Source of the DNA: Dermatophilaceae bacterium Sec6.4
GTDB lineage: Bacteria; Actinomycetota; Actinomycetes; Actinomycetales; Dermatophilaceae
Reading direction: 5' to 3'
DNA: 64,000 bases
NCBI GenBank assembly: GCA_039636865.1
Contig: CP144172.1
Location: 1,984,001-2,048,000 of the forward strand
Numbering within the stretch: position 1 is the stretch's first letter; each line of letters starts with the position of its first letter. A program made the translations under genes and the position numbers. Positions 1 through 10,886 of the stretch are shown here, piece by piece. A model generated the notes under the pieces. It was not told the DNA's origin, made no database searches, and saw only the letters and a list, made by a program, of their open reading frames with translations.

Positions 1-770
1 CGGAGGTACCCGAGGAAGACGTCGCGAAATTCGACCCCGGCATCCTTGAGGGCAGGATCGAGTTCAGCAGTGTCTCCTTCCGATATCAGCCCGATGGGCC
101 ACTGGTACTGGACGACGTCTCCATCCGGGTTGCGGCAGGAAGCTCGATCGCGCTCGTCGGACCATCCGGGTCGGGTAAGTCCACGCTCGGCAGATTGCTC
201 CTCGGCTTTGAGGAACCGGAGCACGGTGCAGTCTTCTTCGACGACCAGGACCTGTCCGGTTTGGATATCCGTGCCGTGCGTCGCCAACTGGGCGTGGTGC
301 TGCAGTCGGTGGAACTGCTGCCGGGCAGTGTTCTTACCAACATCATCGGATCGGCGGTGAACCTGACGGTTGATGACGCGTGGCGTGCCGCGGAGAGGGC
401 GGGGCTCGCAGGTGACCTGCGCGCCATGCCAATGGGCATGTACACCGCGGTCAGCGAGGGCGGATCCACGTTTTCCGGTGGTCAACGCCAGCGTTTGTTG
501 ATTGCTCGAGCTCTGGCCGGGAGTCCGCGGATCCTGCTGTTCGATGAGGCGACAAGCGCCTTGGACAATGCGACGCAGGCCGTCGTCGCCGAGAGTCTCG
601 TCAAGGTGCGCGCGACCCGCATCCTCATCGCCCACCGGTTGAGCACCGTGATGGACGCCGACCGTATCTACTACCTGGAACAGGGCCGGATCGTCGAAGA
701 CGGATCGTACGACGAACTGATGGCGCTGAACGGCGCGTTCGCCTCGCAGGCACGTCGCCAATTGACGTGA
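1..770 (+). CDS. NHLM-type bacteriocin ABC transporter, ATP-binding C-terminal part (5' partial)
   Basis: The reading frame is open from the window edge (codons start at base 3), so the membrane part of the gene lies upstream. The visible ~255 residues are a complete nucleotide-binding domain: Walker A GPSGSGKS near base 160, signature FSGGQRQR, Walker B ILLFDEATSALD and switch AHRLST. The stretch MPMGMYT ahead of the signature, and the phrase GVVLQSVELLPGSVLTNI, are what I recall as typical of the NHLM (nitrile hydratase leader microcin) second ATPase, not of ordinary multidrug exporters. It probably energises export of a modified peptide, with leader removal by a partner peptidase-ABC protein outside the window. 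The stop is ~50 bp before the YcaO gene on the same strand, which supports one operon. The family call is good; the substrate is inferred. Confidence 0.88.
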   Translation, partial: EVPEEDVAKFDPGILEGRIEFSSVSFRYQPDGPLVLDDVSIRVAAGSSIALVGPSGSGKSTLGRLLLGFEEPEHGAVFFDDQDLSGLDIRAVRRQLGVVLQSVELLPGSVLTNIIGSAVNLTVDDAWRAAERAGLAGDLRAMPMGMYTAVSEGGSTFSGGQRQRLLIARALAGSPRILLFDEATSALDNATQAVVAESLVKVRATRILIAHRLSTVMDADRIYYLEQGRIVEDGSYDELMALNGAFASQARRQLT

Positions 771-810
771 ACGATCGATATCGACGATCCGCAAACGGCC
801 CGATGAGAGA

Positions 811-3156
811 GTGCAGACAAGCATGACAGACCCAGCAACGCCTACCCCTGAGGATCGGCGTCGGGTCAGTGCCGTGCGCGCGGATCACGCGTGGGCGCTC
901 GATCCGCGCGTCGTGCTGCGTGTCGTCCCGAGAGATGGCGTCTACGTACTTCGCGGTGAGGACACTGTGCTGCTGCGCGGTGCTGCGTACGAGGCCGTCG
1001 CGCCGCTCATCAATGGTCGACGGACGTCGGATGATGTGGTGGATGCATTGGACGGAACACTTCCCGCTGCACAGGTGTACTTCGCGATCCAGCGGATGCA
1101 ACAACGGGGGATTCTTGTTCCGACTGCGACGCAGGAGAAGCTTGTCGAGCGGGCCTGGTGGCTCGAGCTGGGTGCGGACCCGGGTGCAGCCGTCGATGCG
1201 ATGCGCAGCACTGTGCAGATCTGTGCGACCGAGGGGGTTGACCCCGAAACTGTCGACGCCGCGGCGAGCTGCCTGGAAGCGGCGGGCGTCCAGGTGCTGA
1301 CCTCCAGGCACCTGCCGACACTTGAGTTGGAGTCTCCGGATATTTTGCTGGTATTCGCGGGCGACTACACCGACACCGACCTTGCAGCAGTCAATCGAGT
1401 CTGCCTGGCAGCCCATGTCACCTGGTTCCTGGTATGGCCCGGTGCGCGCCGGCTCTGGCTCGGGCCCCTGTTCAGGGATGGTGACTCGCCGTGCTGGGAA
1501 TGTCTCATGGCGCGCAGGCACTCGCATCGACGCGTCGCGTCGTTTCTTTCATCGCTTCCAGGCGGCGATCCGATCGTGATGCCGACAGTCACGACTCCGG
1601 CAGCAGTTCAGTTGACCGCCCGGATCGCCGCGATGGAAGTCGTGAAGATCCTTGGTGGGTTGAGCAGGCCCACCGTCGAGGGTGCGCCAGGAGACTCTGC
1701 GGTGCTGACGGAACTGGACATTGTGGACTGGAGCGCGACGCAGCACGTCCTGGTCCGTCGACCGCAGTGCGGCGCCTGCGGAGATCCCACACCACGCCCG
1801 ACGACCCCGATCAGACCGACAGCCGAACCGGTACATGACGGCAGAGAAGGGGATTTCCGGACCGTTACGGCGGACGAGACCTTCCGTCGGTACCGACACC
1901 ATGTCAGTGCGATCACGGGAGTGGCCAGCATGCTCGAACCGGTGCGCACGCCGGATCCAGGGATGCATGTCTGGCACTCTGGCGCTAACCTCGGTCTGCC
2001 CATAAGGAGCCTGCTCCAACTGCGGCGCAGCCTGCGGGCGTCTACTGCCGGTAAGGGGACCACAGCGGCGCAGGCCAGAGTGGGCGCGCTGAGTGAGGCA
2101 CTGGAGCGCTATTCGGGGATGAGCACCGGCGACGAGCAGCGTGTCAGAGGGTCGATGCGCAGTCTGGGCAGTTCGGCGATTCATCCGAATGCGTGCATGC
2201 TCTTCAGCGCCGCCCAACTGAAGGATGCCGAACGGCTCAACGCGGCAGATTCCTGGTTCAATTTCGTCCCCGCCCGCTTCGATGAGGACACGGTCACGGA
2301 CTGGACCCCGCTATGGTCACTGTCCTGGGAACAGCAGGTGCTCCTACCGACCGGGAGCCTATACTTCGGTGGCTCCCGTGAGCCGAACTCGGGTGTTTTC
2401 GCGGACTCGAACGGCTGCGCTGCGGGTAACACCCTGACCGAGGCGATCCTGCAGGGCACCCTGGAACTGGTGGAGCGCGACTCGGTGGCCCTCTGGTGGT
2501 ACAACCGGTTGCGCAAGCCAGGTGTGGATCTCGTCGGGATGGGTGACCCGTGGGTCCAGGAACTGATCGCGAGCTATCGGGCGCGCGGGCGTGAGGTGTG
2601 GGCGCTGGATCTGACCACTGATCTCGAGATCCCCACCATCGCGGCGTTCTCACGCCGGGTGGACCACCCGACCGAGCGGATCCTGATGGCGTTCGGGGCT
2701 CACCTCGACAGTCGCCTGGCCGTGCTGCGGGCGCTCACCGAACTCAATCAGATGGCTTTCACCGGTGATGATCCGAGCAGCGCGGATGCCGGACTGGATC
2801 GGGATATGGAGAGCTGGATGAGCACGGCAACGGTCGCCAATCAGCCGTACCTGCTGCCCGATCCGGCCGCGCCCACGTGGCGGGCGACAGACCATCCGAA
2901 CCGAGTCGATGAAGACCTCGCAGCGAATGTCCTGCTCTGTCGTCAACGGCTGGAACGGGCCGGCCTCGCCATGCACGTACTGGACCAAACGCGCCCCGAC
3001 ATCGGGATGCCGGTCGTGCGTGTCGTCGTGCCGGGCATCCGCCCGTTCTGGTCCCGACTGGCTCCCGGACGTCTTTACGACGTGCCGGTCGAACGCGGGT
3101 GGCTCGACGCACCCACCGCCGAGGCCGATCTCAACCCCATTGCGATGTTCCTGTGA
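811..3156 (+). CDS. Fused TOMM cyclodehydratase (RRE/ThiF-like C domain + YcaO D domain)
   Basis: This 781-residue protein should install azoline heterocycles on Cys/Ser/Thr of a precursor peptide using ATP. Residues ~25-105 look like the winged-helix RiPP recognition element that binds leader peptides. Residues ~110-335 are ThiF/E1-like, with a four-cysteine zinc site formed by CWEC (C228, C231) and CGAC (C320, C323). From ~345 on it is a YcaO domain: SEALERYSG, GNTLTEAILQGTLELVERDS (the acidic ATP/Mg helix) and a C-terminal end LNPIAMFL, close to the Pro-rich tails known in azoline-forming YcaO proteins. The GTG at 811 has almost no spacing from the GAGAG just upstream; the in-frame ATG at 823 may be the true start. 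The 3' end overlaps the SagB-like gene by GTGA, so translation is probably coupled. Confidence 0.9.
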   Translation: MQTSMTDPATPTPEDRRRVSAVRADHAWALDPRVVLRVVPRDGVYVLRGEDTVLLRGAAYEAVAPLINGRRTSDDVVDALDGTLPAAQVYFAIQRMQQRGILVPTATQEKLVERAWWLELGADPGAAVDAMRSTVQICATEGVDPETVDAAASCLEAAGVQVLTSRHLPTLELESPDILLVFAGDYTDTDLAAVNRVCLAAHVTWFLVWPGARRLWLGPLFRDGDSPCWECLMARRHSHRRVASFLSSLPGGDPIVMPTVTTPAAVQLTARIAAMEVVKILGGLSRPTVEGAPGDSAVLTELDIVDWSATQHVLVRRPQCGACGDPTPRPTTPIRPTAEPVHDGREGDFRTVTADETFRRYRHHVSAITGVASMLEPVRTPDPGMHVWHSGANLGLPIRSLLQLRRSLRASTAGKGTTAAQARVGALSEALERYSGMSTGDEQRVRGSMRSLGSSAIHPNACMLFSAAQLKDAERLNAADSWFNFVPARFDEDTVTDWTPLWSLSWEQQVLLPTGSLYFGGSREPNSGVFADSNGCAAGNTLTEAILQGTLELVERDSVALWWYNRLRKPGVDLVGMGDPWVQELIASYRARGREVWALDLTTDLEIPTIAAFSRRVDHPTERILMAFGAHLDSRLAVLRALTELNQMAFTGDDPSSADAGLDRDMESWMSTATVANQPYLLPDPAAPTWRATDHPNRVDEDLAANVLLCRQRLERAGLAMHVLDQTRPDIGMPVVRVVVPGIRPFWSRLAPGRLYDVPVERGWLDAPTAEADLNPIAMFL

Positions 3157-4610
3157 GTGTGCCGTTGATGATTGCGCTGCGCCCCGAGGTGGAGCGCCGG
3201 ACGAGGATCGGCGCCGACGGCGAAGAGATCGAGATGCTGGAGGCCAGGTGGGGGGCGCTGGCCCTCCCGCGCGCAGGCACTCCCGAACGGGCTCCCGTCG
3301 ACCTGCTCATCAGGAGGCCGGCGACGCCTTCCGAGTGCGAGGCATCGGTCGCCCCGACGGGGACGACAGGCCTGGCGAGATGGATGTTTTGGGCTGCCCG
3401 GGCCAGCCGGCGTGGCTTTCTCAGCTACCGTCTGCTGACCCCTGACGGCACGCTGGTCGCGGATGTGGTGCCGACCTCGCCGGAGGCTCCGAATCTCATG
3501 CTGGGCCCTCCTGCCGCACCCTGTCCGGCCCGGTTGCAGCTGTCCCAATTCGCGGTACTTCACCGGGGCCCGCGCGGCATGATTCTGGAGTCGCCCTGCG
3601 CGAATATGCGAGCCGAATTGACGGTGGCTGCTGTGGCGGTGATCGCTGCCTTCGTCGTGCCGATCACACCGGCTGACGCTGCCGACACGGTTCTTGTCAC
3701 GCCCGGCTTCGGCGCCGCGCAGCTCGATACTCTGGTCGCCGTCCTCCTTCGGGCGGGCCTCCTGGCCGAGGTCGGCGATGACGACCTGCTCGCCGAAGAT
3801 CGTGATCCAGCACTGTCGCAATGGGAATTTCACGACCTGCTCCTGCACGACCGTAGTCGGATGGCCCATCCGGATGAGCCGCGCGGCGGAACATACCGAT
3901 TCGCTGGTGCGCGACCCGCCCCTGCTGCTGCGGGGGACCGTGAGCGCACCGCGAGCGGGTCGGGCACGGACTCCAGGGTCATCCTTCCCCCGCCGGATCT
4001 GGCGGCTGTGATGGCCGCTGATCCCCCCTTCGCGCAGGTGATGGAGGACCGTTCCTCCCGACGTAACCTGAGCCCGCTCACCATTGCCCAGCTGAGCGAA
4101 TTCCTGTACCGGACGATGAGGGTCCGAGGGTGGCGAGGCACGGTCGAGCAGGCGGACAGCTACCCGAGGCCATCGCGCCCCTACCCAGCTGCCGGTGGCC
4201 TGTATGAACTCACCACGTATCTGGCAGTCGCCGACTGCGAAGGATTGCCCGCCGGGCTCTATCGTTACGACCCCTTCGACCACGAACTGATCCTCGTGAC
4301 CCCGTCCAACCCGGATGTCGATCGACTGCTGCGTGAAGGGGGAGGGGCAGCCACCCTGACGACTCCACCGCCCGTTCTCGTGATCCTCGCGGCAGATTTT
4401 CGTCGCCTCAGCTGGAAATACGAAGGCATTGCCTATGCGCTGACACTGAAGAACGTCGGCGTGCTCTTCGCGACGATGCAACTCGCGGCAACCGCGATGG
4501 GCCTCGGCAGTTGTCCGGTCGGAGCTGGGGACTCTTTCCTCTTTGCTCGTACCGCGGGAACCCGCCTTTACGAGGAATCCTCGGTCGGTGAATTTCTGCT
4601 GGGAACGTGA
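3153..4610 (+). CDS. SagB-type FMN-dependent TOMM dehydrogenase
   Basis: It likely oxidises azolines made by the preceding cyclodehydratase to azoles using FMN. The C-terminal ~200 residues form a nitroreductase-fold domain: EDRSSRRNLSPLTIAQLSEFLYRT (shown in part), SRPYPAAGGLYE, GLYRYDPFDHEL and a final ATAMGLGSCPVG segment, the pattern of SagB/ThcOx proteins. The N-terminal ~270 residues are divergent and typical of the long actinobacterial forms. I place the start at GTG 3153, where GTGA overlaps the stop of the YcaO gene; longer in-frame extensions would lie inside that gene. Protein length is 485 aa. It is the last gene of the cluster: the next gene is convergent, only ~15 bp away. Confidence 0.87.
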   Translation: MSVPLMIALRPEVERRTRIGADGEEIEMLEARWGALALPRAGTPERAPVDLLIRRPATPSECEASVAPTGTTGLARWMFWAARASRRGFLSYRLLTPDGTLVADVVPTSPEAPNLMLGPPAAPCPARLQLSQFAVLHRGPRGMILESPCANMRAELTVAAVAVIAAFVVPITPADAADTVLVTPGFGAAQLDTLVAVLLRAGLLAEVGDDDLLAEDRDPALSQWEFHDLLLHDRSRMAHPDEPRGGTYRFAGARPAPAAAGDRERTASGSGTDSRVILPPPDLAAVMAADPPFAQVMEDRSSRRNLSPLTIAQLSEFLYRTMRVRGWRGTVEQADSYPRPSRPYPAAGGLYELTTYLAVADCEGLPAGLYRYDPFDHELILVTPSNPDVDRLLREGGGAATLTTPPPVLVILAADFRRLSWKYEGIAYALTLKNVGVLFATMQLAATAMGLGSCPVGAGDSFLFARTAGTRLYEESSVGEFLLGT

Positions 4611-4626: not shown

Positions 4627-6315
4627 TCAGCCTTTTCGGTAGAGCACGTCCGTCACGGCGGCTTCGTCGCTGAACACCGGGAGAACATCGTTGATGCTGT
4701 TGATCGGGCCGTAGTCGTTGAGACAGATCGCGAACGCGAGTCGGTGTCCGGCGAGGGTGTCCACATACCCGGCGAGGGTCTGCGCCTTGAGTTTTCCATC
4801 GAGCAGTGTCGTGCCGGTCTTGGCGTAGACGTGTCCCTTGGCGGCGAGGTCGGTGCCGGTGTGGGCGAGCGAGCCATCGACGCCGAGAACGGGAAGTGCG
4901 TTCTGGTAGATCCCTGCGACGTTGGTGTGGCTCATCATGGTGAGCAGCTTGACGATCGCGAGAGGGGTGGCGCGGCTGTCCGGGCTGCCACTGCCGTTGG
5001 AGGGGAAGTCGAAGCCGCTCGCCGGCACGCCCATACCTATGACGGCTTTGCGTTCCGCCGCGAGCGCGCCGGACCGGGTCTTGTCTCCCTGAGTCAGTCC
5101 GAACTGGGTCAGCGCGAGGTTGGCACCGAGGTTCAGACTTACCTTCAGGATGAGCTTCGCCTGGTGCGCGTAGGTCGGTGAGATCAGGGCGGCGACACGG
5201 CTCGTGCTCGGATAACTCGTCGAGGCGGGAAGCGTGGCGGTCGGGTTCGGCCCCACGGTGGGTGTGGCAACCTTGACGCCGATGCGTTGTAAGGCCTGGA
5301 TGAACGCGGTGCGGGCGAAGGCTTCGGGATCCTCGACGCGGAACGTGCCCACGTAGCTGCGGTCGCCGGACAGCGGTGCCCGATAGTCAACGGGGATGGT
5401 GCCGCTCACTCTCGCGGTACAGCCGACCGTGGCAGCGCAGGTCACGAGACCGGTCACAGATTGGCCGTTTGATGCTTTGACGTCGGGCACCGAGACGGTC
5501 GGTGTGGTTCCCGCCGCGGTCGTGCGCACGCTGCTGATCACTTTCAACGCGGCTGTCTTGGGCCGGTATTGCAGCGTGGCGGGCTGTCCGGGGCGGGTCG
5601 GCGTGATGGTGACGTCGACCATGTTCTCGTTGAGCATGGTCGGGGTGATGAGCAGGTCGTTGTTCGGCACTCGGTAGGCGGGAAAGAGCCGGTCGTCGAT
5701 CACGACATCGCCGTCGACAGTGGTGATACCGGCGGCTCTGACCTGCCGGGCCAGTTGATCCACGCCGGCAAGCGGGTCCTGTGGGGTCAGGCTCGCGGTG
5801 CCGAGGTTGTTCGCGTCATTGTGATCGAAGTCGGTGTAGGCCAGAGCGCCATTGGCGGTGCGTCGTCCGCCGAGCGTGAGATCGCCGGCGCCGACCAGGT
5901 TGAGGTTGCCGTGCAGCACACCGGCTGTGTCGAGCGTGCCGGTGCGGTAGACGGGGGTTGTCGTGCGGTGGTCGGGGCCCAACGTCTTCAGAGCGAGTCC
6001 GACCGAGAACAGCTTGCGCACCGATCCGGTGAACGCCAATGTGTCGGGATGCTCGGTGTAGAGCGACTTCCCGGTGCCCAGGTCGGCGACCACCACGCTC
6101 CAGCTTGCTTTGGAATAGCGCGCATTGCCGGTGATTGCGTTGATCTCACTGGTGAGATCGCTTGGTGCGGCTGCAGTGCTGCGCCCTGTGTTCGGCGGTG
6201 GCACGGTGCTCGAGCGTGGCGCCGCGCCCGAGCCGTTCGTCGTGCACGCGCTCACGGTGGCCAGGACCCCGACGGCGACCGTTGAGGTGCGCCACCGCGA
6301 TCTGCGGGCGGTCAC
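4627..6315 (-). CDS. dacB: D-alanyl-D-alanine carboxypeptidase/endopeptidase (PBP4-like, S13), lipoprotein
   Basis: A 562-residue peptidase of family S13 that would trim or cut peptidoglycan cross-links outside the cell. The start is GTG at 6315, overlapping the stop of the upstream paralogue (GTGA); the extended frame beyond it is out-of-frame sequence of that gene. The N terminus has an Arg-rich region, a hydrophobic stretch and lipobox VSAC (C24), so it should be membrane-anchored. Catalytic SxxK is SVRK (S98-K101) and the KTG triad is in HVYAKTGT. Where an SxN motif is expected I see LGANLAL, so Ser is replaced by Gly; the downstream paralogue-pair member shows the same change. It is co-transcribed with that paralogue and convergent with the RiPP cluster. 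Confidence 0.88.
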   Translation of the reverse strand: MTARRSRWRTSTVAVGVLATVSACTTNGSGAAPRSSTVPPPNTGRSTAAAPSDLTSEINAITGNARYSKASWSVVVADLGTGKSLYTEHPDTLAFTGSVRKLFSVGLALKTLGPDHRTTTPVYRTGTLDTAGVLHGNLNLVGAGDLTLGGRRTANGALAYTDFDHNDANNLGTASLTPQDPLAGVDQLARQVRAAGITTVDGDVVIDDRLFPAYRVPNNDLLITPTMLNENMVDVTITPTRPGQPATLQYRPKTAALKVISSVRTTAAGTTPTVSVPDVKASNGQSVTGLVTCAATVGCTARVSGTIPVDYRAPLSGDRSYVGTFRVEDPEAFARTAFIQALQRIGVKVATPTVGPNPTATLPASTSYPSTSRVAALISPTYAHQAKLILKVSLNLGANLALTQFGLTQGDKTRSGALAAERKAVIGMGVPASGFDFPSNGSGSPDSRATPLAIVKLLTMMSHTNVAGIYQNALPVLGVDGSLAHTGTDLAAKGHVYAKTGTTLLDGKLKAQTLAGYVDTLAGHRLAFAICLNDYGPINSINDVLPVFSDEAAVTDVLYRKG

Positions 6316-7934
6316 GACACGGCCTGCTGGATCGCGGCGGCCACAGCCGCTACGTCGTTGCCTGCCTGACCGATGCCGGTCTGTACATCGGGGTAGGTGC
6401 CGCTGCTCATGGCTATGTCGAACACCAGTTGGCGACCGTCGGAGGTCGTCATGAATCCGGCGAGCCGCTGGACGTTGAACAGCGCCCTGTCGTTGCCCGG
6501 ATCGAGGTGCGCGCTGGTGCCGGTTTTGGCCTGAATTTTGCCCTTGGCGGGGCTGTTTGCTCCACTGCTGGCCAGCGTCCCGCTCTCGCCCAAGACCGGT
6601 TGTCCTGCCTTCAGCGTCGCTCCCCACGGTTGCGTCTGAGTCCAGCGCAGGTACGTGACCATCTGCGCGGGCGATGCTGAGGCCGGGTCAGCGCCCTGCC
6701 CGTCGATGAGCACGACGTCGGCGGCGGTCAGGCCGGCCTTGTCGACCATGGCGCGGATCGGCTTGAGCCCGGCTAAGCAGTCGGTGGAGCCCTGATGGAC
6801 GGCGAGCAGACAGAGCATGGCGTTGGCGCCCGTGTTGTAGCTGGTCTTCAGGATCAGCGAACCGAAGGCGGACAGCGGGGGCGAGGTGAATTTCGCCACC
6901 TGTCGGGTGGGCTGGTAGCTGCTCTTGGAGGGCAACTGGTCTGCGGGATTGGTGGCCAACGGGTCAGCGGTCACGGTGACGCCGGCGCGTTTGAGTGACT
7001 CGATGAACAACGTACGGGCCCACGACGCCGGGTCTGGGATGCGGTAGATGGTCAGCCGTGGCCCGGCACTGGCCCCGATGGTGCCGGTGACTACCAGTCG
7101 GTGCGGTTGGCGTGTGTCGGGCTCGACCTGCAGTGCCACCTTCGAGCCGGCCCCGGTCTTGACCTTCGAGATCACTTGGTAGGCCGTGGTGACCGGGCTG
7201 GTGGCGATGGCTGCGAGGGCACCGGACGCGCCGGGAGTGACGGTTATATCGAGCACATTGTCGTTGATGAACATCGGCTGGACGGTGCCTTCCCCTCCGG
7301 CGAAGGGTTGCCACAGTCTGTCGTCGATGAGCACGTTGCCGCTGACCTTCCGAATTCCCTTCGCGGCGATTTGTTGCGTGAGGCTGTCCAGACCGGCGAG
7401 CGGGTGGCCGAGGGGTTTGACGGCATTGGGTGCGAGGTCGCCGTAGACGTGGTCGATGTGTGCCTCGTTGAACGACTCGTCGGCCCGACCCTGCGGTGCG
7501 TTGCGACCGCCCATCGTCAGGTCCCCGGAAGCAACGAGTGCCAGGTTGCCGTGCAGGACACCGTTGGTCACGGTACCGGTCGCGTAGACCGGAGTGGTGA
7601 GCTTGGTGTTGGTGCCGATCGTGTTGTATGCCGCTCCGACGGTGAACTGCTTCGCAGTCGAGGCAGTGAACGCCATCTCCGAGGGCCTGTTGGCGAGCAG
7701 CACCTTGCCGGTCTTCAGGTCGCTGACCTCGTAGGTCCAACGGGCGCCCTGATATGCAGGCTTGGCCATGATCTTCTGAGCCGACGCCGGCAGCGACACC
7801 GCGCGCGCTGTGTCGGATGAGCTTGCCGGGCTGGACGAGCCGGCGGGCGAGGTGGGCGTCTGACCACCGCCGCTGGAACAGGCGGTGGCCGTACAGGCGA
7901 CCACGAGGATCGCCATACCGAATCGAGTGCGCAT
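6312..7934 (-). CDS. dacB: D-alanyl-D-alanine carboxypeptidase/endopeptidase paralogue (S13), lipoprotein
   Basis: A 540-residue paralogue of the gene that follows it in the same operon. The signal sequence ends in lipobox ATAC (C19), followed by a Ser/Pro/Gly-rich linker to ~45. The catalytic tetrad is STAK (S92-K95) in AFTASTAKQF, and the KTG box is in IQAKTGTSA. The middle motif is TGANAML, again GAN rather than SxN. The inserted beta-rich domains between SxxK and GAN make it the PBP4 class, not DacA. About 200 bp separate its start from the divergent histidine kinase, so the shared promoter lies there. The duplication looks old because the two proteins share the fold and motifs but little linear identity. 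Confidence 0.88.
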   Translation of the reverse strand: MRTRFGMAILVVACTATACSSGGGQTPTSPAGSSSPASSSDTARAVSLPASAQKIMAKPAYQGARWTYEVSDLKTGKVLLANRPSEMAFTASTAKQFTVGAAYNTIGTNTKLTTPVYATGTVTNGVLHGNLALVASGDLTMGGRNAPQGRADESFNEAHIDHVYGDLAPNAVKPLGHPLAGLDSLTQQIAAKGIRKVSGNVLIDDRLWQPFAGGEGTVQPMFINDNVLDITVTPGASGALAAIATSPVTTAYQVISKVKTGAGSKVALQVEPDTRQPHRLVVTGTIGASAGPRLTIYRIPDPASWARTLFIESLKRAGVTVTADPLATNPADQLPSKSSYQPTRQVAKFTSPPLSAFGSLILKTSYNTGANAMLCLLAVHQGSTDCLAGLKPIRAMVDKAGLTAADVVLIDGQGADPASASPAQMVTYLRWTQTQPWGATLKAGQPVLGESGTLASSGANSPAKGKIQAKTGTSAHLDPGNDRALFNVQRLAGFMTTSDGRQLVFDIAMSSGTYPDVQTGIGQAGNDVAAVAAAIQQAVS

Positions 7935-10583: not shown

Positions 10584-10886
10584 CGCCAGCGACAGCATTG
10601 CAGTCCGTCCCGGGCCTCACTGGGCGGATTCGACGGTGTTCGGCATGTCGTTCATGCGCGGGCAAGCGCAACGGATCAGAACGCCAAGGTTGAAATCTGA
10701 TTTGATCCCAGTCGCCCACTCGTAAGAAATGGCCCCTGACCAGCGGCACGCATGGTCAGGGGCCCATTTATGCACTGACGTGCTACCCAGGTGTGATCAG
10801 GTCCGGCCCCGCGGGTACTGCAGGCCGCTTTTGCGGGCACCCGGTAACTCCCACTGAGCCGGCGTGCGGACGCGGGATGATGGGGC
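10584..10886. other. Intergenic region with terminator, no gene
   Basis: About 300 bp between the response regulator and the P-type ATPase. Apart from the perfect stem-loop at 10731-10764 I see no open frame with a plausible start and ribosome site. The promoter of the ATPase should lie between that stem-loop and 10887. Confidence 0.6.
10731..10764. terminator. Bidirectional-looking terminator stem-loop
   Basis: A perfect 12-bp inverted repeat, GGCCCCTGACCA and TGGTCAGGGGCC, with a 10-nt loop, followed by CATTTA. There is no long T tract, as is usual in high-GC actinobacteria. It lies between the response regulator and the ATPase, both on the plus strand. Confidence 0.75.

Follow-up and report, generated by a model that had tools for sequence, protein, structure and literature searches.

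The six genes that cross the left edge of the analysed window (64,000 nucleotides of Dermatophilaceae bacterium Sec6.4, C2:1984001-2048000 in the host genome) very likely form a complete biosynthesis and export cluster for an azole-type proteusin (NHLP-TOMM) that works in the manner of the mpr system. The cluster is new in sequence and known in kind. The assignment follows from a precursor with an NHLP leader, an L(X)4L motif and a Gly-Gly site, encoded together with a fused cyclodehydratase and a SagB-type dehydrogenase; the family scores of the window genes are far beyond chance. The initial annotation had proposed a TOMM/azole RiPP cluster cut by the window edge; the remaining genes of this operon were indeed located directly upstream. 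It was read in a fetched segment (L002, C2:1969001-1989000), which is identical to the window where the two overlap.

The gene order is precursor, HlyD-like protein, C39-peptidase ABC exporter (ABC1), NHLM exporter (ABC2), fused cyclodehydratase and dehydrogenase, with successive intergenic gaps of 44, -4, -4, 40 and 11 nt. Upstream of the window are the gene of the 95-aa precursor (C2:1978777-1979064, L002:9777-10064), which spans the stretch from 5224 to 4937 bases before window base 1, and those of the HlyD-like protein (L002:10109-10936) and ABC1 (L002:10933-13140). The window begins inside the gene of the permease/ATPase ABC2 (C-terminal part in window 1..770, plus strand; whole gene C2:1982137-1984770, L002:13137-15770, 877 aa) and continues with the cyclodehydratase (window 811..3156, plus strand, 781 aa, alternative start ATG 823) and the SagB-type dehydrogenase (window 3168..4610, plus strand, 480 aa from ATG 3168). 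The corresponding open frames (3-770, open at its 5' end; 811-3156; 3099-4610) follow one another on the plus strand in head-to-tail order. The longest dehydrogenase frame opens at GTG 3099, and ATG 3168, 11 nt past the YcaO stop, is the likely start. The tight plus-strand run of an NHLM-type exporter, a fused cyclodehydratase-YcaO and a SagB-like dehydrogenase, recognised from the letters alone, was recovered with the family models TIGR03797, TIGR03882/TIGR03604/PF02624 and TIGR03605 respectively. The precursor had been placed outside the window and a peptidase-ABC gene was sought upstream; both were found there. No defence system was matched by PADLOC among the five proteins submitted.

The 781-aa fusion matched TIGR03882 (107.1 bits, cut-off 36.9), TIGR03604 (267.9 bits, cut-off 219.25) and the Pfam YcaO family PF02624 (327.1 bits, cut-off 25.7), and was the sole PF02624 match in the 3.79-Mb host genome at E 0.001. 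Its N terminus is a winged-helix region (residues 36-102, window 916..1116, plus strand; PF21084, 35.3 bits, cut-off 24.1), which by analogy with LynD and MprC may be the RiPP recognition element, since its position matches. It is followed by the E1-like leader-binding domain (window 1420..1923, plus strand; TIGR03882), with two CxxC motifs (Cys 228, 231, 320 and 323), and by the YcaO domain (residues 413-744, window 2047..3042, plus strand; PF02624). In an alignment of 85 rows (the window protein, 80 named loci and four host-family genomes), the four CxxC cysteines are kept in 85, 83, 83 and 83 rows respectively, while E429, E432, R433, N534, E552, E555 and R556 are identical in all 85 and Q548 in 82. 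We take these conserved residues to be the YcaO ATP-site and zinc residues. At 19 positions on which 85% or more of the rows agree, the window enzyme has another residue, including T543, where 82 rows have E; an altered activity is therefore possible.

The dehydrogenase frame scored 154.2 bits against TIGR03605 (antibiot_sagB, cut-off 78.4) and matched CyaGox (5lq4, E 1.1e-51), the alignment showing a WKY stretch common to both. A Lys-Tyr pair is catalytic in SagB-type and CyaGox-like enzymes. For ABC2, TIGR03797 was the best model (429.3 bits for the window fragment and 835.7 for the full protein, cut-off 709.4). The HlyD-like protein scored 202.6 bits with TIGR03794 (cut-off 156.2) and ABC1 981.2 bits with TIGR03796 (cut-off 853.3). 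The C39 peptidase domain of ABC1 (121.4 bits) has Cys, His and Asp, read by eye, at what are presumably the catalytic places.

The precursor, whose GTG start is preceded by AGGAG, scored 72.5 bits against the NCBIfam NHLP leader model TIGR03793 (cut-off 50.9), and the match stops at residue 81. Its end reads ...LTDEELDSVAGG|YLSFPCATKDGPIW, with the predicted cleavage site at Gly80-Gly81 followed by the core YLSFPCATKDGPIW, which has 14 residues. The ~5 kb upstream had been expected to hold a short frame with a leader and a Cys/Ser/Thr-rich core; the frame, with NHLP leader and Gly-Gly, was present, but the core is not rich in these residues (3/14: one Cys, Ser3 and Thr8). The L(X)4L motif is Leu70/Leu75 in the numbering of MprE7, in which it is likewise Leu70/Leu75 (PMC12455567). 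The helix-1 contacts described there for MprE7 (Q7, S10, Q11, A14 and W17) align to K9, A12, A13, A16 and W19, so that two of the five are kept (Ala and Trp). The top PDB match was the MprE7-leader chimera 8tb1 (E 1.7e-15), MprE7 being a substrate of the characterised azoline-forming enzyme MprC, and the rest of the 36 PDB matches were nitrile hydratase chains and one NHLP peptide, 9cjx (E 4.3e-4). With a single Cys in 95 aa, the precursor does not have the CxxCSC metal motif of nitrile hydratase. The AlphaFold model of the precursor (25-row alignment) has helices at 4-20, 22-30, 32-38 and 72-79, with a mean pLDDT of 74.8, a pTM of 0.51 and a low-confidence tail (81-94). Its top Foldseek match was again 8tb1, weakly (E 0.021, rmsd 10.3), and the structure model therefore adds little. 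A whole-genome search of the host for a second NHLP precursor returned the precursor itself and one weak match at a distant, stop-containing place (E 0.22).

An iterated search of 85 loci gave 70 precursor-like frames in 32 loci, of which 46 could be parsed into leader and core and 24 could not. Cores with a single Cys are not rare: they make up 11 of the 46 parsed, YLSFPCATKDGPIW included, while two have none. The fraction of C/S/T is 3/14 in the window core, compared with a median of 0.34 in the 46 parsed cores. The core YLSFPCATKDGPIW was not seen in the other loci compared. The precursor search matched 7 of 186 family genomes and 11 of 396 phylum genomes, own included in both. The 14 other genomes matched hold open frames of 194-401 aa, which may be nitrile hydratases. 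The precursors of G005 and G021, the only ones read among those genomes, have leaders with an extra insert and Cys-run cores. Two host-family genomes contain frames of another NHLP type (L011:10142-10905 and L012:8975-9322), with cores made of Cys runs, for example TCCCCCPCCCC.

Among known systems, the best comparison is with mpr. The locus of Methylovulum psychrotolerans Sph1 (L018) encodes ten NHLP precursors and is very probably the mpr cluster (MprC/MprD/MprE1-10), because the leader stretch of 8tb1 occurs unchanged in one of them. Its cyclodehydratase is 42% and its SagB-type protein 37% identical to the window proteins, and HlyD, ABC1 (51%) and ABC2 are homologous. The leaders also agree in the absence of the extra insert of the G005/G021 sets, and L(X)4L and GG are at equal places. 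By contrast, mpr has ten precursors and the window operon one, the exporter genes of L018 are on the other strand whereas the window operon has all genes together, the window core is longer and less Cys-rich, and the helix-1 contact residues diverge. The NHLP/Nif11 TOMM group, as described by Haft et al. 2010 (PMC2887384) and Cox et al. 2015 (PMC4603692), shares with the window a TIGR03793 precursor beside a TIGR03882 fusion and the exporter trio TIGR03794/03796/03797. Five examples named there for NHLP beside the fusion are firmicutes, proteobacteria and a Chlorobium, and the actinobacterium Eggerthella lenta is named for Nif11-type precursors (PMC2887384, PMC4603692). Nostatin A (NstC/NstD/NstE), an azole-containing proteusin, resembles the window cluster in its NHLP-type precursor, cyclodehydratase and oxidase; it differs in that its cluster, as described in PMC11583998, also encodes an epimerase and a LanM-like enzyme and that its Ser/Thr/Cys-rich core has 30 residues; none of these is present among the six window-operon genes. 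For the actinobacterium Flexivirga meconopsidis Q11, antiSMASH reports a proteusin region (PMC10745605), and the likeness is that of region type alone. The nearest solved relatives of the cyclodehydratase and the dehydrogenase are cyanobactin LynD/TruD and CyaGox; cyanobactin clusters have a PatA/PatG-like protease, whereas the window operon has an NHLP leader and a C39 exporter. A cyanobactin was ruled out, as no PatA/PatG-like subtilisin protease was present among the six operon proteins, and so was a lanthipeptide proteusin, as no LanM-type enzyme was present among them.

From the observed genes, their order, domains, motifs and conserved residues we infer the chemical steps, the ring position, the secretion and any bioactivity of the product. 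The folded 81-residue leader would use its helix 1 and L(X)4L strand to dock on the cyclodehydratase, which would then activate the Pro-Cys amide of YLSFPCATKDGPIW with ATP and close a thiazoline; this ring the SagB-type enzyme would oxidise to a thiazole. The C39 exporter would cut after Gly-Gly and secrete the 14-mer. The expected thiazole product has a computed [M+H]+ of 1577.75 (1597.77 if unmodified). In the mpr system, MprC together with MprD converts a lone Cys placed after the MprE7 leader to a thiazole (PMC12455567).

Ser3 and Thr8 of the core would be weaker candidate ring sites. It is possible, at considerably lower probability than the single thiazole, that the cyclodehydratase also modifies Ser and/or Thr, giving two or three rings (oxazole, methyloxazole). 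The ten substrates of MprC each received between two and six rings; however, MprC, another enzyme than the window cyclodehydratase, is stated to prefer thiazole-type rings over (methyl)oxazolines (both PMC12455567), and 44 of the 46 parsed cores hold a Cys. A decaying or inactive operon, with the genes there and the enzyme or its expression lost, is unlikely. The window enzyme does deviate at 14 positions on which 90% or more of the other rows agree, a count that ranks joint fourth from the top among the 85 rows, no sigma-70-like promoter was matched upstream of the operon, and the island end described below is degenerate. Nevertheless, all six frames are open with tight spacing and the catalytic-motif and CxxC residues are kept. 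Moreover, the most deviant rows (G005, G013 and G021, 29-31 deviations) are themselves remote from the others in the tree, so that deviation tracks divergence.

YcaO proteins also make thioamides, and the fusion matched TIGR03266 with 148.2 bits, below the cut-off of 365. Against a YcaO that is thioamidating, or otherwise not azoline-forming, stand the fused E1-like domain and the SagB partner in the operon. The solved structures closest in sequence are azoline-forming fusions, namely LynD (E 5.5e-163), TruD (1.4e-158) and MusD (5.3e-145), which are nearer by more than 100 orders of magnitude in E than archaeal MJ1094 YcaO (5.8e-20) or 6ci7 (1.4e-10). This agrees with the azole class named in the initial annotation. 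On sequence grounds a thioamide-type YcaO was ruled out, and an enzyme with other than azoline chemistry is scarcely credible. An azole-type proteusin, with a thiazole at the single Cys, remains the preferred reading.

Six of 58 near genomes matched the cyclodehydratase at E 1e-30 (the own genome, four of the host family and one of the same order with a partial match), and neither of the two congeners searched matched at this threshold. At E 1e-60, matches were found in at least 2 of 396 genomes of the order and at least 30 of 394 of the class, own included; these counts are lower bounds because only two candidates per genome were scored. A single-protein scan of the named collection confirmed none of seven stretches as relatives, and an alignment scan found at least 539 relatives among the 589 stretches listed. 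Of these, 80 were kept, with best segments 36-44% identical among the matches listed. The nearest rows over the alignment, by plain identity, are planctomycete (L017, 44.0%) and Amycolatopsis (L065 and L066, 43%) rows, followed by Nitrospirillum (L020, 42.8%), and not mpr. In plasmid records, 268 of 72,556 matched the cyclodehydratase, 20 of them over at least 80% of its length; the ten listed are 37-39% identical and none is close.

Trees were built among fused cyclodehydratases only. The quick tree (85 rows) placed the window cyclodehydratase with Methylovulum, Nitrospirillum and Pelobacter (support 93), and the cyclodehydratase of the same-family genome G028 among Actinomycetota. A careful tree of 47 rows, chosen from the 85 mostly by thinning cyanobacteria and leaving out G005, G013, G021 and others, gave the same grouping (75/87). 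The AU test did not reject (p 0.089) a placement among 21 rows of the actinobacterial side, namely G028 and 20 named Actinomycetota. In the ABC1 tree (19 rows, the partial L093 left out) the window grouped with Nitrospirillum and Methylovulum (86/92), on a side of nine rows that also includes the host-family G013 and G021. In the cyclodehydratase trees as in the ABC1 tree, the window protein forms a long branch. A transfer from proteobacteria is possible, and the trees are only suggestive of it.

The operon is flanked by two partial tRNA-Val(GAC) 3'-end repeats with 24.7 kb between them, and this interval can be read as a tRNA-associated island with a worn right end. The repeat has three host copies in a genome search, all on the plus strand. 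One is the 3' end of the intact tRNA-Val(GAC) (C2:1899350-1899424) with the hairpin that follows; those at C2:1969996 (L002:996 onward) and C2:1994690 have the tRNA 3' end and the hairpin only, and are preceded by the arm TTGAAATCTGAT, which the tRNA does not have. The right-hand att-like copy (window 10690..10764, plus strand) is degenerate, being 83% identical to the copy at C2:1969996 over 78 bp (E 2.3e-15) and 80% to the intact tRNA-Val region over 71 bp (E 2.4e-10). The hairpin alone recurs elsewhere, for example at window 17202, so that what is informative is the arm together with the tRNA part. No hit came from Rfam and tRNA scans of L002, in which the tRNA copies are partial. A tyrosine recombinase (C2:1968746-1969855, PF00589 E 6.9e-14) adjoins the first partial copy outside the interval, and no recombinase was found inside it among the frames scanned. 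The congener G002 also has a copy resembling that at C2:1969996, adjoined by ~0.9 kb of similar DNA, and the 29 kb from this copy to the next conserved stretch gave no match among the candidates scored (40 of 290 and 40 of 245). The succession of three tRNA-Val 3'-end copies, with spacings of 70.6 kb and 24.7 kb, points to two islands stacked at a single tRNA gene.

Besides the operon, the interval contains an IS256 transposase, a 1382-aa Gly-rich protein, a pair of S13 carboxypeptidases, a histidine kinase and a response regulator. The eight best of 4610 plasmid records matching the transposase are from Mycolicibacterium, Rhodococcus and Arthrobacter (64-67%). The Gly-rich protein (L002:5421-9569), just upstream of the precursor, shows, by eye, a hydrophobic stretch at its C terminus and weakly matches the ALK/LTK Gly-rich domain (33.2 bits). 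A 59-aa frame behind AGGAG (L002:3866-4045, C2:1972866-1973045), whose middle ALPDDELECVAGAG resembles the end of a RiPP leader, has a near-copy ~783 nt on (L002:4530-4758, C2:1973530-1973758) with a frame that differs after ALPDDELECVAGAG. No family was matched by the longer frame of this pair, and no Cys or Ser follows ALPDDELECVAGAG.

The two tandem S13 (PBP4-type) D-Ala-D-Ala carboxypeptidase genes (window 4627..7934, minus strand; PF02113) are convergent with the operon. They are 38% identical over the matched part and are the only such host matches at E 1e-20, a threshold at which neither of the two congeners matched. As a conserved cluster part the pair was rejected, since tblastn at E 1e-8 gave no match to it in any of the 84 other cyclodehydratase loci (some are short), and it is probably outside the pathway. 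It is very improbable that the island-borne proteusin acts on cell-wall DD-peptidases and that the adjacent S13 pair, carried on the mobile unit with it, provides target copies or self-protection.

A cluster cut by the window edge is now completed, and its product is defined and testable as a prediction. The only precursor of the operon is short, has its one Cys next to a preceding Pro, and closely resembles in design the artificial single-Cys substrate of MprC described in PMC12455567. As the helix-1 contacts differ from those of MprE7 while L(X)4L is kept, the cluster could be used to test leader-cyclodehydratase co-evolution. The island, with its tRNA-derived flanks, suggests how clusters of this kind may be mobilised.
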